Shown here piece by piece: positions 14,250-19,693 of a stretch of 44,618 nt of DNA. How positions within the stretch are numbered: the stretch's first letter is position 1; every line of letters begins with the position of its first letter. Source of the DNA: Bacteroidota bacterium (GTDB lineage Bacteria; Bacteroidota; Bacteroidia; AKYH767-A; OLB10). Both the position numbers and the translations under genes were made by a program. The stretch spans positions 1 to 44,618 of the forward strand of contig JAHEMF010000022.1 in assembly GCA_024643795.1 (NCBI GenBank), in the 5' to 3' direction. Below the pieces are notes generated by a model, which did no database searches, had not been told where the DNA came from, and was given only the letters and a program-made list of their open reading frames with translations.

Positions 14250-15161
14250 TCAGATCCTTTTACCTATTCTTAGTTTAGCACTTCTTGAACGCGGATTTCT
14301 TGTCATCTCCTCCTCAGTAGCAAGAATCGGTTTCCTGTTTACAGGCTCAAAACTTCTGCCTTGCTTGTTGCCATACAGATCTCTTTTATCTTCACCTGAA
14401 AGATTGCCGAGTTGGATGAAATTCTTGACCAAACGATCTTCAAGAGAATGGTACGACATCACCACAAGCCTTCCGTCCTTTTTTATTAGTCCCGGAGCCT
14501 GCTCAAGCAGATCCCTGAGTGCCGATAACTCATCATTCACTTCTATTCTTAGAGATTGAAACACTCTGGCAAGAAATTGTGTCTCTGCTTGCTTAGGAAT
14601 GAATTTGGAAATGCAGCGTTTAAGATCTCCCGTTGTTCTGATAGGATTTACAGTACGACTTTCACAAATTGCTCTTGCCAGTTTTCGTGATTGGGTTATC
14701 TCACCATATTGGTAAAACACATCAGCCAGTCTTGACTCTTCATATTCGTTGATAACATTAAAAGCACTGAATTCTTGATCTTTGTTCATTCGCATATCAA
14801 GAACCTCATCTTCAAAACGTATTGAAAAGCCTCTTTCAGGGGCGTCGAACTGATGCGAAGAAACTCCCAGGTCGGCAAGCAAACCATCAACTTGGTCCAC
14901 TTCCATATCTGAAAGCCTTTTACCAATGTTTCTGAAATCATCCTGCACCAGCATAAATTTTGGGTCTTCTATTTTGTTTCTCAGTGAATCTTCATCCTTG
15001 TCAAAGGCTATCAAACGCCCTGTTCTTAACTTTGACAGTATAGCACCTGAATGTCCTCCTCCCCCGAATGTTGCATCGATGTAAATTCCGTTCTCTTTTA
15101 TTGCAAGGCCTTCAAGGCACTCACTAAGCATTACAGGTTCATGGTAACCTCTGCTATGCAC
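14250..15161 (-). CDS. rsmH: 16S rRNA m4C1402 methyltransferase RsmH (MraW)
   Basis: SAM-dependent enzyme that N4-methylates C1402 in the 16S rRNA decoding centre. HEPVMLSECLEGL (8-20) and the SAM loop DATFGGGGHSGAIL (29-42) are present. So are LLADLGVSSHQFD (about 94-106), ARAICESR and the C-terminal SYHSLEDRLVKNF, which is diagnostic for MraW. Length 303 is normal. The start is GTG and overlaps the end of mraZ by eight bases, which points to coupled translation. Confidence 0.97.
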   Translation of the reverse strand: MHSRGYHEPVMLSECLEGLAIKENGIYIDATFGGGGHSGAILSKLRTGRLIAFDKDEDSLRNKIEDPKFMLVQDDFRNIGKRLSDMEVDQVDGLLADLGVSSHQFDAPERGFSIRFEDEVLDMRMNKDQEFSAFNVINEYEESRLADVFYQYGEITQSRKLARAICESRTVNPIRTTGDLKRCISKFIPKQAETQFLARVFQSLRIEVNDELSALRDLLEQAPGLIKKDGRLVVMSYHSLEDRLVKNFIQLGNLSGEDKRDLYGNKQGRSFEPVNRKPILATEEEMTRNPRSRSAKLRIGKRI

Positions 15162-15618
15162 GCTCCTCCGACCCTGGTTTACCCATTACCTCTTCAGCCA
15201 ATGCAGCAAAATCATCAGATTCTGTTCCTTGCATTTCATTGAACTTCTGTTCGGACCAGATCTCGATCTTGTTTGCATATGCGGCAAGGATTATCTCCTT
15301 TTCAATGCCGGCATACTCAAGCAATCTCTTTGGTAACAGCAGTCTTCCTGTACCATCAAGTGCGAGTTCTGTTGCTCCACGATAGAAGAACCTCATGAAT
15401 TCACGGTTCTTCTGAACGTAGGGATTCAGGGTGTTAACCTGAGAACTGATCCTCTGCCATTCGGTTAATGGGTAAAGGGCCAGGCAGTTTTCGAAACCAC
15501 GATTCACAACAAATCGCTCCTGACTTTCAGGGGAAAGTTGCTTGCGGAGACCAGCAGGAAAGAGTATCCTTCCCTTGTCATCCATTTTGATTTCGTATTC
15601 GCCTAAAAACTGCGTCAT
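15154..15618 (-). CDS. mraZ: Transcriptional regulator MraZ
   Basis: DNA-binding protein made of two AbrB-like half-domains. Each carries the family signature: DDKGRILFPAGLR at 13-25 and DGTGRLLLPKRLL at 88-100. MraZ is the first gene of dcw clusters and, in E. coli and Mycoplasma, binds short TGG/GTGG repeats at 10-bp spacing in front of its own operon. Matching boxes are present upstream here. Length 154 is normal. It very likely heads the operon down to ftsZ and controls it. Confidence 0.96.
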   Translation of the reverse strand: MTQFLGEYEIKMDDKGRILFPAGLRKQLSPESQERFVVNRGFENCLALYPLTEWQRISSQVNTLNPYVQKNREFMRFFYRGATELALDGTGRLLLPKRLLEYAGIEKEIILAAYANKIEIWSEQKFNEMQGTESDDFAALAEEVMGKPGSEERA

Positions 15619-15638: not shown

Positions 15639-15688
15639 ACCCACCCCGAATGTGAACGGTTTTTTCATCCTTGTACTAAGGGGTGGGT
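15639..15688. repeat. Inverted repeat in the mraZ leader
   Basis: ACCCACCCC (15639-15647) and its exact complement GGGGTGGGT (15680-15688) are separated by 32 bases, between the MraZ boxes and the mraZ start. It could be a leader hairpin or another operator, since each arm also contains TGGG. The upstream arm touches the predicted -7 element, so an operator role fits at least as well as an RNA stem. Confidence 0.45.
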
Positions 15689-15705
15689 AAAGGTAAAAAA
15701 ATGTC

Positions 15706-15731
15706 TCCCACTTTTTACCACTATTTACCAC
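15706..15731 (-). promoter_or_regulatory. Predicted MraZ operator in front of mraZ (three boxes)
   Basis: Read on the minus strand, GTGG occurs three times with exact 10-base spacing: GTGGTAAATA, GTGGTAAAAA, GTGGGAGACA. On the plus strand the CCAC cores start at 15708, 15718 and 15728. MraZ of E. coli binds TGGGN repeats and that of Mycoplasma binds AAAGTG-type repeats, both with 10-bp period, so this is a strong operator candidate. The nearest box lies about 12 bases upstream of the degenerate -7 element TACCTTTA, where it would overlap the -33 region. Confidence 0.75.
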
Positions 15732-15836
15732 AATTGTTGATAAATTATTTTCTGCAAGATACATTTATTCAGTCATGTATGTCAATACACCTACAGAATG
15801 ACTATAAAACCTAGAATTAATGATTTTATTGTTTAA

Positions 15837-15851
15837 TGGTAAAAAGTGGGA
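15837..15851 (+). promoter_or_regulatory. Mirrored MraZ box pair facing the acyltransferase operon
   Basis: TGGTAAAAAGTGGGA on the plus strand contains two TGG cores exactly 10 bases apart. It is a perfect 15-of-15 inverted copy of 15706-15720. It lies 38 bases upstream of the TAnnTTTG element at 15890, a position suited to activation or to looping with the mraZ-side boxes. The match is directly visible; binding by MraZ is inferred. Confidence 0.6.
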
Positions 15852-15889: not shown

Positions 15890-15897
15890 TACCTTTG
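15890..15897 (+). promoter_or_regulatory. Promoter -7 element for the acyltransferase operon
   Basis: TACCTTTG is a perfect match to the Bacteroidota -7 consensus TAnnTTTG, 34 bases before the GTG start. No TTG is found at the usual 17-23 bases upstream, so the promoter may need an activator; the mirrored MraZ boxes sit just upstream. Confidence 0.6.
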
Positions 15898-15931: not shown

Positions 15932-16753
15932 GTGTCTGAAAACAAGAAGTTTATAGATATACACAAGGTTTTTCATGAGAAAAACCCATCATTATATAGG
16001 TGGACCCCAAATTTTCTTATCGATGCTCTTTCCCGACTCGTTCATGCTGAAGAGATAAATTTATTCATAGACACCTTTGGCCATCACTATAACCTTGAAT
16101 TCGTTGATGATATCATCTCTGAATTTGGCGCCAAACCACAGTCTCATGGTTTGGAAAATATCCCTAAAACTGGGGGATGCGTGATCGCTGCCAATCACCC
16201 TTTGGGCGGACTCGATGCCATTGCACTCATACAATCTGTTGCGAAGACCCGTCCCGACATCAAATTCATAGTCAATGACGTTCTGCTGCAACTTGAAAAC
16301 TTAAAAGAGATCTTTACGGGAGTAAACAAGTTCGGAAAGACCCGGTTGGGAGTACTCAGCAATATTGATGATCTCTATGCTTCAGGGATGGTGGTTATGA
16401 TATTTCCGGCAGGGCTGGTCTCAAGAAGACAACCGGATGGTACCATCAGGGACCTTGAGTGGAAAAAAAGTTTTATTAGCAAGGCCAAAAAGTACAACGT
16501 ACCGGTAATACCTACCTATATTGGGGGAACAAACACTTCCAGATTTTATTCACTGGCAAATTTCAGAAAGAAAATAGGTATCCAGGCTAATATTGAAATG
16601 ATGCTGCTACCTGACGAAATGTATAAACAGAAAGGTAAAGCAATTCCTATTATATTTGGTGAGAAGCTTTTTCCTGAATCCTTTCCTTCTGAAATGAGTG
16701 ATCAGGAAATAGCATCATGGGTGAAAGAAAAAGTTTATAATTTGCAAAATTAG
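15932..16753 (+). CDS. glsA: PlsC-family O-acyltransferase, probable GlsA/OlsA-type lipid synthase
   Basis: Membrane-associated acyltransferase of the lysophosphatidic acid acyltransferase superfamily. The catalytic block is NHPLGGLD (88-95), where His and Asp are five residues apart rather than the four of classical PlsC; FPAGLVSR (about 157-164) is the second acceptor-binding block. Next to a hemolysin-like GNAT acyltransferase, the best match is the O-acyltransferase that completes amino-acid lipids (GlsA, which makes glycine lipids in Bacteroides, or OlsA in ornithine lipid synthesis). The amino acid cannot be read from sequence. The start is GTG; no ATG is available near it. Length 273. 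Confidence 0.75.
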   Translation: MSENKKFIDIHKVFHEKNPSLYRWTPNFLIDALSRLVHAEEINLFIDTFGHHYNLEFVDDIISEFGAKPQSHGLENIPKTGGCVIAANHPLGGLDAIALIQSVAKTRPDIKFIVNDVLLQLENLKEIFTGVNKFGKTRLGVLSNIDDLYASGMVVMIFPAGLVSRRQPDGTIRDLEWKKSFISKAKKYNVPVIPTYIGGTNTSRFYSLANFRKKIGIQANIEMMLLPDEMYKQKGKAIPIIFGEKLFPESFPSEMSDQEIASWVKEKVYNLQN

Positions 16754-16792: not shown

Positions 16793-17731
16793 ATGCAGGA
16801 AATCATTCCTCCTATTGATAGAAAGATCTTACGTCAGGAACTTAATCCTGACAGATTTATTCGTCGTGTTAACAATGGGAACAACCTGATCTACATTATC
16901 AATAATCAGAATTCACCCAATGTAATGCAGGAGATAGGCAGGCTTCGTGAGGTTACTTTCAGAGAAGCCGGTGGCGGTACTGGCAAATCTATTGACATTG
17001 ATCATTATGATATTACTGAAGCACCTTATCAACAACTTGTTGTCTGGAATCCTGATGATGAAGAGATTATTGGAGGATACAGATTCATCAAATGTGCTGA
17101 TGCCGAAATGGATGATGAGAACAAATTAAAGCTGGCCACAACAGAGTTGTTTAAATTTTCGGATATTTTTCTAAAGGACTATATACCCTACACTATTGAA
17201 CTGGGAAGATCTTTCGTACAACCCAGATATCAGCCTTCCAGTCAGAACCGCAAAGGTTTATTCTCTCTGGACAACTTATGGGATGGCCTGGGTGCATTGG
17301 TCATAGATAATCCGGACATTAAATATTTTTTCGGTAAGGTTACAATGTACACTCACTTTAACAAGGAAGCCCGGGATATGATCCTTGCTTTTATGCACTA
17401 TTACTTTCCCGACAAGGATAAGCTTGTTACACCATATGTACCTCTGCCCTTAAACGGTGATGTCACTGAGTTTTTGAAGAAGCTGGAGGATTTAAATTAT
17501 AAAGACGGTCACAGAATTCTGAATCGGGAAGTTCGAGACCTTGGTGAGAATATACCTCCACTTGTTAATTCTTATATGAACCTTTCTGCCACCATGAAAA
17601 CTTTTGGAACCGCTTTCAACGACCACTTTGGAGATGTGGAAGAAACAGGCATCATGGTAACGATCAGTGAAATTTATGACTCAAAAAAAGAAAGACACCT
17701 GACCACTTATATCAAAGACAAACTAATTTAA
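16793..17731 (+). CDS. glsB: GNAT-type N-acyltransferase, probable GlsB/OlsB-like
   Basis: Hemolysin/OlsB-like acyltransferase. Visible signatures are FREAGGGTGKSIDIDHYD (about 55-72) and YQQLVVWNPDDEEIIGGYRFI (roughly 79-99), then LGRSFVQPRYQ near 143-153. Homologues transfer a 3-hydroxyacyl group from acyl carrier protein to the amino group of glycine (GlsB) or ornithine (OlsB), and the partner O-acyltransferase adds the second chain. The gene follows that partner by 39 bases and is followed directly by engB, so the three are probably one operon. Length 312. Substrate identity is inferred from the phylum, where glycine lipids are common. Confidence 0.75.
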   Translation: MQEIIPPIDRKILRQELNPDRFIRRVNNGNNLIYIINNQNSPNVMQEIGRLREVTFREAGGGTGKSIDIDHYDITEAPYQQLVVWNPDDEEIIGGYRFIKCADAEMDDENKLKLATTELFKFSDIFLKDYIPYTIELGRSFVQPRYQPSSQNRKGLFSLDNLWDGLGALVIDNPDIKYFFGKVTMYTHFNKEARDMILAFMHYYFPDKDKLVTPYVPLPLNGDVTEFLKKLEDLNYKDGHRILNREVRDLGENIPPLVNSYMNLSATMKTFGTAFNDHFGDVEETGIMVTISEIYDSKKERHLTTYIKDKLI

Positions 17732-17737
17732 TTGGGC

Positions 17738-18343
17738 ATGCATATTGAATCAGCAATCTTTCTTGAGTCTAATACAGATTTTAAGAAATGCCCAACGCCC
17801 AATTTGCCCGAGTTTGCATTTATAGGAAGATCTAATGTTGGTAAATCAAGCCTGATCAATATGATCACTGGTCATAAAAAAATTGCCAAGACATCTTCAA
17901 CTCCCGGCAAAACTCAAACATTGAATCACTTTTTACTTAATAAAAAGTATTACATAGCCGATCTCCCAGGTTATGGATATGCTAAAACATCAAAGACAAA
18001 CAGGAGAAAGTGGGAAAAGATGATACGTGACTATCTTTTTTTCAGGCCAAATCTCATGAATACTTTCATTTTGGTCGACAGCCGCCATAATGCACAAGCA
18101 TCTGATCTTGAATTCATGGAATGGATGGGAGAGAATAGCCTCCCCTTTTCCATTATTTTCACAAAAACTGATAAGCTGTCAACCAATGCACTCCGTGAAG
18201 CTATTCCAAAATATCTGGAGGAACTATCAAAAACATGGGAAGAGCTTCCGGTATATTTCCTTACCTCAGCTGAAAAATCAACCGGCCGGGATGAAGTACT
18301 GGACTATATTGAAAAAGTATCTGTGGTCTTTGTACCACAATAA
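17738..18343 (+). CDS. engB: Ribosome biogenesis GTPase EngB (YihA/YsxC)
   Basis: Small TRAFAC GTPase required for assembly of the large ribosomal subunit. G1 GRSNVGKSS is at 30-38, G2 is the TSSTPGKTQ stretch (52-60), G3 DLPGYGYAK begins at 75 and G4 is TKTD. I place the start at ATG 17738 (MHIESAIF), six bases after the previous stop. An in-frame TTG directly abutting that stop would add only two residues. Length 201. It converges with gldC, with five bases between the stops. Confidence 0.95.
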   Translation: MHIESAIFLESNTDFKKCPTPNLPEFAFIGRSNVGKSSLINMITGHKKIAKTSSTPGKTQTLNHFLLNKKYYIADLPGYGYAKTSKTNRRKWEKMIRDYLFFRPNLMNTFILVDSRHNAQASDLEFMEWMGENSLPFSIIFTKTDKLSTNALREAIPKYLEELSKTWEELPVYFLTSAEKSTGRDEVLDYIEKVSVVFVPQ

Positions 18344-18348
18344 CTGAT

Positions 18349-18678
18349 CTATTTCAGAACACCTGCAAGCTTACCGAAATTCTGTGCAAACTCATTCATG
18401 GCTTCTGTAACCTCATCATCACCTGTTGCTTTTTGGTAAGTATCGGCCATACCTCTGATTGTTTCATACATCATATGCTGCATTTCTTCAACCATCATGG
18501 TCTTTGTCCACAAGTCTATTCTGTAAGTACACTCATCATTGCCATCCCATAATGATATCATTATTCCTTTACAGGGACGCGTTCCATCCATTCCTGAATC
18601 TGTAGCGGTCCATTCCATATTCACCGGATGTTTTGATTCATCCAGTTCAACCGTGATATTTATCTCTGATCTGTTCAT
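18349..18678 (-). CDS. gldC: Gliding motility protein GldC
   Basis: A 109-residue soluble protein opening MNRSEINITVELDESKHP and containing TDSGMDGTRPCKGIMISLWD, the recognisable GldC core. In Flavobacterium johnsoniae gldC lies directly after gldB, and loss of GldC reduces colony spreading; the biochemical role is not known. Here it starts one base after the gldB stop, so the two are co-transcribed. There is no signal peptide or membrane segment, so it should be cytoplasmic. Confidence 0.9.
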   Translation of the reverse strand: MNRSEINITVELDESKHPVNMEWTATDSGMDGTRPCKGIMISLWDGNDECTYRIDLWTKTMMVEEMQHMMYETIRGMADTYQKATGDDEVTEAMNEFAQNFGKLAGVLK

Positions 18679-18679
18679 A

Positions 18680-19693
18680 TTATTTATTGGGTTTATATCC
18701 TGATGCTTCGAGAATTTGTAGTGCGTCGTTGTTATTCATTAATTGTTCGAGAGTAACCTCCTCATTTCTTTCCATATATCTGTTAACAATTTGCCAGCCG
18801 GTGTAAGCACCCACTTTACCGGGAGACTCTTCGGGAAACCCTTTAGTGGTTGGTCCTTCACTAACATATTTCATATACTCGGATGCATCAGTATTGAATA
18901 AAAGTTTATTCTCTATGAAAAACCCCCAGATGCTACTTTCATTGGCATCGCACCATGCCAGCTGTTTGCCGGAATATCCGGTCACTAATGTATCATTCAA
19001 ATCAGGCGCAAGGTTTTTTATATAATAAATGACCTTCCCCTGATAAACCATTTGACTCAATAATTCATTCTTGACCTCAAGGGGGTCATAATCTGACTGA
19101 CAAATTGCTCTCAGACAATTGGGAATGATATATTCTTTTGAAAACCGGCTTGATAAATATGTTGGAAAACCTATCAACTGATAGTAAGGATTATCTGACC
19201 CAAGGAACATGTCCAGGCCTATGCCCAGAATGCTGTCGGCTGTAACCACACCATAGTTAAATGCAGATAAATAAGTATACACTTTTGGAATAGTTTTGGA
19301 TGGGAAATAGCTTTTACGAATCGACAGACTTTTTTGCAATTTTGACTCTAGTACATCCATAGTTGCATACCTGACCATGACACTATCATACAAAGCCGAA
19401 ATATTAGTATCACTCACAAAAAAGCTCAGACTCAACGAAAGTAACGTATCATTTGACCCGCTCATAGACATGATATCATATGCGAACACATCTAAAAATG
19501 GGCCAAATTCATTTTTTAAAACAGCAAGTTCTTCCAAACTGATAGTGTCACCAAGGGAGAACAATTTCTGCTCAAACCGATTAAAAACCAATTCTTCTCC
19601 ATTATCAGAAAAATCGGCTTCTTTTTCAGGACCACATCCTACTAACAAACCGGTTGTTAATAGAATAAAAAAAACTAAAAATACTTTGTTCAT
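18680..19693 (-). CDS. gldB: Gliding motility lipoprotein GldB
   Basis: Lipoprotein with a signal peptide and lipobox (LLVGC, Cys20), then a mostly helical soluble domain of about 310 residues. Recognisable stretches are GWQIVNRYMERN near the C-terminus and KQLAWCDANESSIWGFFIEN. GldB is essential for gliding in F. johnsoniae and is tied to the type IX secretion/gliding machinery, but its activity is unknown. Length 337 and the gldB-gldC order fit the family. A perfect -7 element lies 37 bases upstream. Confidence 0.92.
   Translation of the reverse strand: MNKVFLVFFILLTTGLLVGCGPEKEADFSDNGEELVFNRFEQKLFSLGDTISLEELAVLKNEFGPFLDVFAYDIMSMSGSNDTLLSLSLSFFVSDTNISALYDSVMVRYATMDVLESKLQKSLSIRKSYFPSKTIPKVYTYLSAFNYGVVTADSILGIGLDMFLGSDNPYYQLIGFPTYLSSRFSKEYIIPNCLRAICQSDYDPLEVKNELLSQMVYQGKVIYYIKNLAPDLNDTLVTGYSGKQLAWCDANESSIWGFFIENKLLFNTDASEYMKYVSEGPTTKGFPEESPGKVGAYTGWQIVNRYMERNEEVTLEQLMNNNDALQILEASGYKPNK

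Follow-up and report, generated by a model that had tools for sequence, protein, structure and literature searches.

In a large share of bacteria, the division and cell wall (dcw) cluster opens with the gene for MraZ, a ring-forming protein whose mode of action on DNA is under active study. Operators bound by this protein have been described in front of the dcw cluster in Escherichia coli, Burkholderia cenocepacia, Mollicutes and Mycoplasma genitalium (PMC8475190; PMC7761207). They consist of TGG/GTG boxes in direct repeat, with a 10-bp period, close to the mraZ promoter, where MraZ acts as an autorepressor, and in those descriptions they form one local array of three to four boxes (PMC8475190; PMC7761207). 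The protein is an octameric toroid (PMC7761207). PDB entries 9sz7 and 9r4j hold MraZ on its promoter, and the former, a match in our structural search, is titled MraZ in complex with 4 box promoter. A different group of regulators, of the lac repressor or AraC type, joins two operators about 100 bp apart into a loop whose formation depends on helical phase, with a helical repeat close to 11 bp in living cells (PMC1762422; PMC8501960); for lac repressor loops in vivo, one study gives 11.08 bp (PMC1762422) and another about 11 bp (PMC8501960).

The locus analyzed here belongs to the window, a stretch of 44,618 nucleotides from a Bacteroidota bacterium, and shares features with both groups. Its mraZ promoter carries direct-repeat boxes of the described type, but Bacteroidia differ from the known MraZ operators by a second, mirrored pair of boxes located 75-150 bp or more upstream and helically phased. 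The arrangement of two phase-dependent operators about 100 bp apart recalls the lac and AraC-type loops; however, the MraZ fold is unrelated, each operator is an array of several boxes, and the phasing, obtained there with engineered spacers, is read here from evolution across species. Judged from these sequence comparisons, the mirrored repeat most likely serves MraZ as a remote second site, kept on the same helix face across the class as though the DNA were looped, rather than as a switch for the neighboring lipid genes. A phased, remote and mirrored operator conserved in a whole class would be the first sign of MraZ working by DNA looping; among open-licence papers we found no relevant report on MraZ and a DNA loop, which is no proof of novelty.

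The dcw cluster of the window runs leftward and opens with mraZ, followed by rsmH (mraW) and onward (Table 1). The encoded protein belongs to the MraZ regulator family: it comprises two MraZ domains (PF02381, in two stretches), the DxxxR motif found in each of them (D13..R17 and D88..R92) does not vary across the alignment, and its AlphaFold model matches the MraZ structures 1n0e, 9qlg and 9sz7 with Z about 20. MraZ entries ranked first in this structural search, the weaker matches corresponding to FliM, CheC and AbrB-like proteins. On the other side of a 313-bp intergenic gap lies the divergent operon glsA-glsB-engB, which comprises the GlsA-GlsB glycine lipid synthesis genes of Bacteroidetes and is tied to the MraZ box by neighborhood only.

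Within this gap, between mraZ and glsAB-engB, the sequence TGGTAAAAAGTGGGA is read directly on the minus strand at 15706-15720 and again on the plus strand at 15837-15851, exactly as an earlier note on this DNA had reported. The note had also described a third TGG on the mraZ side, and the sequence bears this out, with three TGG repeated every 10 bp on that side (minus 15730-15706) and two on the distal side. Its spacer of 116 bases is correct when measured from the inner 15-mer, but the distance from the outermost mraZ-side repeat is 106 bp, which is also the commonest inter-site gap elsewhere in Bacteroidia. These two copies are the only exact occurrences of TGGTAAAAAGTGGGA in the whole genome (2.88 Mb in 110 contigs). 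A wider MraZ regulon in the same genome was considered and rejected, the sole two matches with one mismatch (C79 and C89) lying inside coding sequence. Matches with up to three mismatches are not significantly enriched in the window alone (4 versus 1.9 expected), and the mirrored repeat is significant because of its exactness, its placement and its conservation. A matrix trained on proximal pairs only gives the distal box of the window a score of 24.3 (p=0.001 versus Markov shuffles), and on this score the copy matches the MraZ operator type in both sequence and spacing. Along with the assignment of mraZ to PF02381 and TIGR00242, this result fits the proposal that both sites are MraZ boxes, which we accordingly list as putative operators.

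Table 1. Features of the mraZ upstream region and its neighbors (window positions).
Feature	Position	Strand	Description
mraZ, first gene of dcw (division and cell wall) cluster	15154..15618	-	PF02381 E=8.8e-35; TIGR00242 above cut-off
Probable -7 element, mraZ promoter	15688..15695	-	TACCTTTA; TAnnTTTG type; 15 bp after last TGG
Proximal MraZ operator (putative)	15706..15730	-	TGGTAAATAG TGGTAAAAAG TGGGA; three TGG every 10 bp; read directly
Spacer, would form loop	15731..15836	.	106 bp; outermost mraZ-side repeat to distal box
Conserved element outside proximal boxes	15735..15743	+	TGTTGATAA, local form of TGTTRAWAA type
Distal mirrored MraZ operator (putative)	15837..15851	+	TGGTAAAAAGTGGGA, two TGG repeats; read directly
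Candidate glsA -7 element	15890..15897	+	TACCTTTG; about 40 bp beyond distal box; single sequence, read directly
glsA, lyso-glycine-lipid O-acyltransferase	15932..16753	+	NF053697 above cut-off; neighbor, not judged part of mechanism
glsB, glycine N-acyltransferase	16793..17731	+	NF053696 above cut-off; neighbor
engB (yihA/ysxC)	17732..18343	+	TIGR03598 above cut-off; neighbor

The proximal array has counterparts in nearly all Bacteroidia mraZ promoters, with the consensus TGGTAAAAAGTGGTA over 257 pairs. The Bacteroidetes -7 consensus is TAnnTTTG, and in 117 of 141 regions the motif TAnnTTT follows the last proximal TGG at a distance of 5-30 bp, usually 13-15 bp. The distal box is less general. 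At p<=0.01 it was detected in mirrored orientation in 86 of 235 Bacteroidia mraZ upstream regions, where about 2 are expected, leaving about 63% of the regions without a clear two-repeat distal box. In the first set of 156 non-redundant regions, a plus-strand distal pair was present in 56 at p<=0.01 (1.6 expected) and in 28 at p<=0.001 (0.16 expected), and a minus-strand pair in 10; in the second set, scanned with the matrix frozen, the box was found in 30 of 79 further regions. The pattern CCACWWWWWMCCA N82-112 TGGKWWWWWGTGG, searched in 396 whole genomes with no reference to genes, returned 20 matches, all 20 at mraZ, and its reversed control returned none in the same genomes. Single GTGGGA half-boxes are enriched in 131 regions that carry a proximal array and no clear distal box, on the plus strand (25 versus 5.1 expected) but on the minus strand too (16 versus 2.8 expected). 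E. coli possesses the proximal array and no plus-strand TGG-N7-TGG upstream of mraZ.

The spacing between the two sites, counted from where the innermost proximal pair starts, is not smoothly distributed but clustered in steps of 11.1 bp (75, 86, 97, 108, 119, 130, 141 and 152). In the first set, the best period was 11.14 bp, with peaks at 74.5, 85.6, 96.8, 107.9, 119.0, 130.2, 141.3 and 152.5. The phasing hypothesis was recorded before the 79 regions of the second set were collected, with matrix, period and phase frozen. There, 18 spacings were shorter than 170 bp, and 16 of them lay no more than 2 bp from a predicted peak; when a single case per family and spacing was retained, 13 of 15 did so (V-test p about 2e-6), as did 9 of 11 in families new to this set (phase statistic, simulated p 5e-6). 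Both sets together give a period of 11.11 bp (bootstrap 10.9-11.4), in agreement with the values for lac repressor loops in vivo (PMC1762422; PMC8501960), and the window itself, with a spacing of 129 bp, lies 1.2 bp off a predicted peak. The spacing is thus constrained to whole helical turns, as in a repression loop. An artefact arising from the gain and loss of 10-bp boxes was also considered and rejected, since a period of 10.0 bp fits poorly (R 0.30 versus 0.71). Exceptions to the phase are the genus g40 of family f22 (L269, L374-L376, L378 and L380), whose array-to-box gaps of 110-112 bp are about half a turn off the phase found elsewhere, and single cases at d = 105, 123, 125 and 133.

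The presence of the distal box is inversely related to the length of the local array. With strictly defined repeats, it accompanies 37 of 53 two-repeat arrays (70%), 41 of 137 three-repeat arrays (30%) and none of the 19 four-repeat arrays. This trade-off holds within families (odds ratio 7) and when each of 68 families contributes a single region (median Fisher p 0.0005), a thinning that reduces the effect of kinship among these mutually related genomes, mostly MAGs, and is no replacement for a tree-based test. A need for about four contacts, satisfied by two local and two remote boxes through a loop, would explain it. A broader proposal, to which we give even odds, is that full repression by MraZ takes about four boxes, supplied either by one local four-box array or by a short array joined to a looped remote mirrored pair; the switch of the whole division cluster would then alternate among Bacteroidia between a single site and two looped sites, and the spacing in their genomes would record the in vivo helical repeat of looped DNA.

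We therefore favor, with a probability of roughly 0.78, the reading of the plus-strand copy as an auxiliary mraZ operator that would be joined to the local one by a DNA loop held by MraZ. Support comes from the site pair and its conservation across the class, from its independence of the neighboring gene and lack of a distal promoter element (both described below), and from the phasing and the trade-off. A ring-shaped MraZ oligomer would grip the TGG boxes spaced by 10 bp, both in the proximal array, which overlaps the region of the mraZ promoter, and in the mirrored distal pair some 106 bp further upstream. The intervening DNA would be held as a loop, making autorepression of the dcw cluster stronger. 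The identity of MraZ as the bound protein, the bridging of the two sites by a single MraZ assembly and the repressive outcome are inferred. The idea of a loop between the two sites had been raised in the earlier note as one of two possibilities, and it is the one that gains support here, from a phasing that was predicted and then confirmed and from the trade-off with the local array. The loop model would explain why local arrays vary from two to four boxes, would make the function of the MraZ ring directly testable and would render loop geometry readable from spacing statistics across genomes.

The strongest competing explanation, which we nevertheless consider unlikely, dispenses with a loop closed by a single ring: two MraZ rings would bind independently, or a filament or another bridging protein would be involved. 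Each array taken alone has at least two boxes, the unit that MraZ recognizes, and multi-ring complexes are possible. However, independent binding predicts neither the 11.1-bp phasing nor the loss of the distal box at four-repeat local arrays, and a bridge made of two rings would still be a loop, differing from the auxiliary-operator model in stoichiometry only.

The other possibility raised earlier, and the main one there, was that the box facing out of the cluster allows MraZ to control the lipid operon, the distal box being a glsAB-engB operator that couples division to glycine-lipid synthesis. The position of the site, upstream of glsA and facing it, speaks for this explanation, as do the frequent occurrence of EngB or GlsAB as divergent neighbor of mraZ and the TGG sites found on the gls side in much of the window's family. 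In that family, 20 of 23 loci keep the divergent mraZ/glsA order and nearly all keep the mraZ-side array; the gls-side site is common but variable. Conservation of the plus-strand box wherever the gene order is kept, on which the earlier note had staked its reading, was found only in part: the two-repeat box is present in five of these 20 relatives (L001, L003, L006, L016 and L017), and in seven more the site is turned the other way. In the latter relatives (L004 and L009-L014), the site lies near glsA, more than 300 bp from the proximal array, and reads for example TGTGACAAAGTGGGA on the mraZ strand.

This variation within the family did not fit a simple glsA operator, and the two genes were therefore considered separately across Bacteroidia, by comparing glsA genes not located beside mraZ with mraZ genes not located beside glsA. 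Upstream of 40 relocated glsA genes, the matrix trained on proximal pairs found no mirrored box on either strand at p<=0.01, and the box does not travel with glsA. It is common, on the other hand, upstream of mraZ genes deprived of a glsA neighbor. Its rate at p<=0.01 is similar whether the neighbor is a divergent glsA (13/44), another divergent gene (28/78) or a gene in tandem (10/26), so that no divergent gene is needed at all. Neighbor orientation derives from ORF calls alone except in four tandem cases confirmed by Pfam, all of them ordinary housekeeping genes that leave mraZ without a divergent partner, namely a Cys/Met PLP enzyme (L106), a CoA transferase (L112), a glutamyl-tRNA-synthetase-type anticodon domain (L268) and a phosphoglycerate kinase (L271). 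Since the box rate is similar whatever the neighbor, tandem genes included, the distal site belongs to mraZ. Promoter sequences point the same way: TAnnTTT follows the distal box in 7 of 56 regions, which is the background rate (10.9%), so that no -7 element stands at a fixed spacing after it and the site, as expected of an auxiliary one, lacks a promoter. The distal box overlies no promoter element, and that of the window precedes the glsA -7 candidate by about 40 bp. MraZ control of the lipid operon through this box is thus not supported, and we regard it as quite improbable. As a side effect of a loop ending near its promoter, some control of glsAB-engB is possible, and nothing in the present data speaks in its support.

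The distal box could also control an unannotated divergent transcript, either a small RNA or a short peptide, originating from the mraZ upstream region. In every lineage, tandem neighbors included, the box does point outward from mraZ. A position-by-position consensus around the distal box, however, revealed nothing conserved but the box itself, neither a promoter nor any other sequence following it, which makes such a transcript very improbable. That the mirrored copy arose by chance or by a local inverted duplication in this genome, as identical 15-mers in a single genome might suggest, is contradicted by the class-wide enrichment, the strand specificity and the phasing, and can be practically dismissed.

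A few further observations concern the surroundings of these sites. An element of the form TGTTGAAAACTT is present in 127 of 209 mraZ upstream regions, for example in L010 and L046, versus a background of 1.4%, and it mostly lies 3-4 bp beyond the outer CCA of the proximal MraZ boxes. It differs from a DnaA box at a single position, and nine regions carry TGTGGATAA in its place. In one member of the window's family (L007), glsAB is replaced beside mraZ by a frame judged by eye to be alpha/beta-hydrolase-like, with engB coming next; this genome, 88% complete, yielded no glsA. In the window, gldC and gldB, two gliding motility genes, directly follow engB on the opposite strand (18349-19693).
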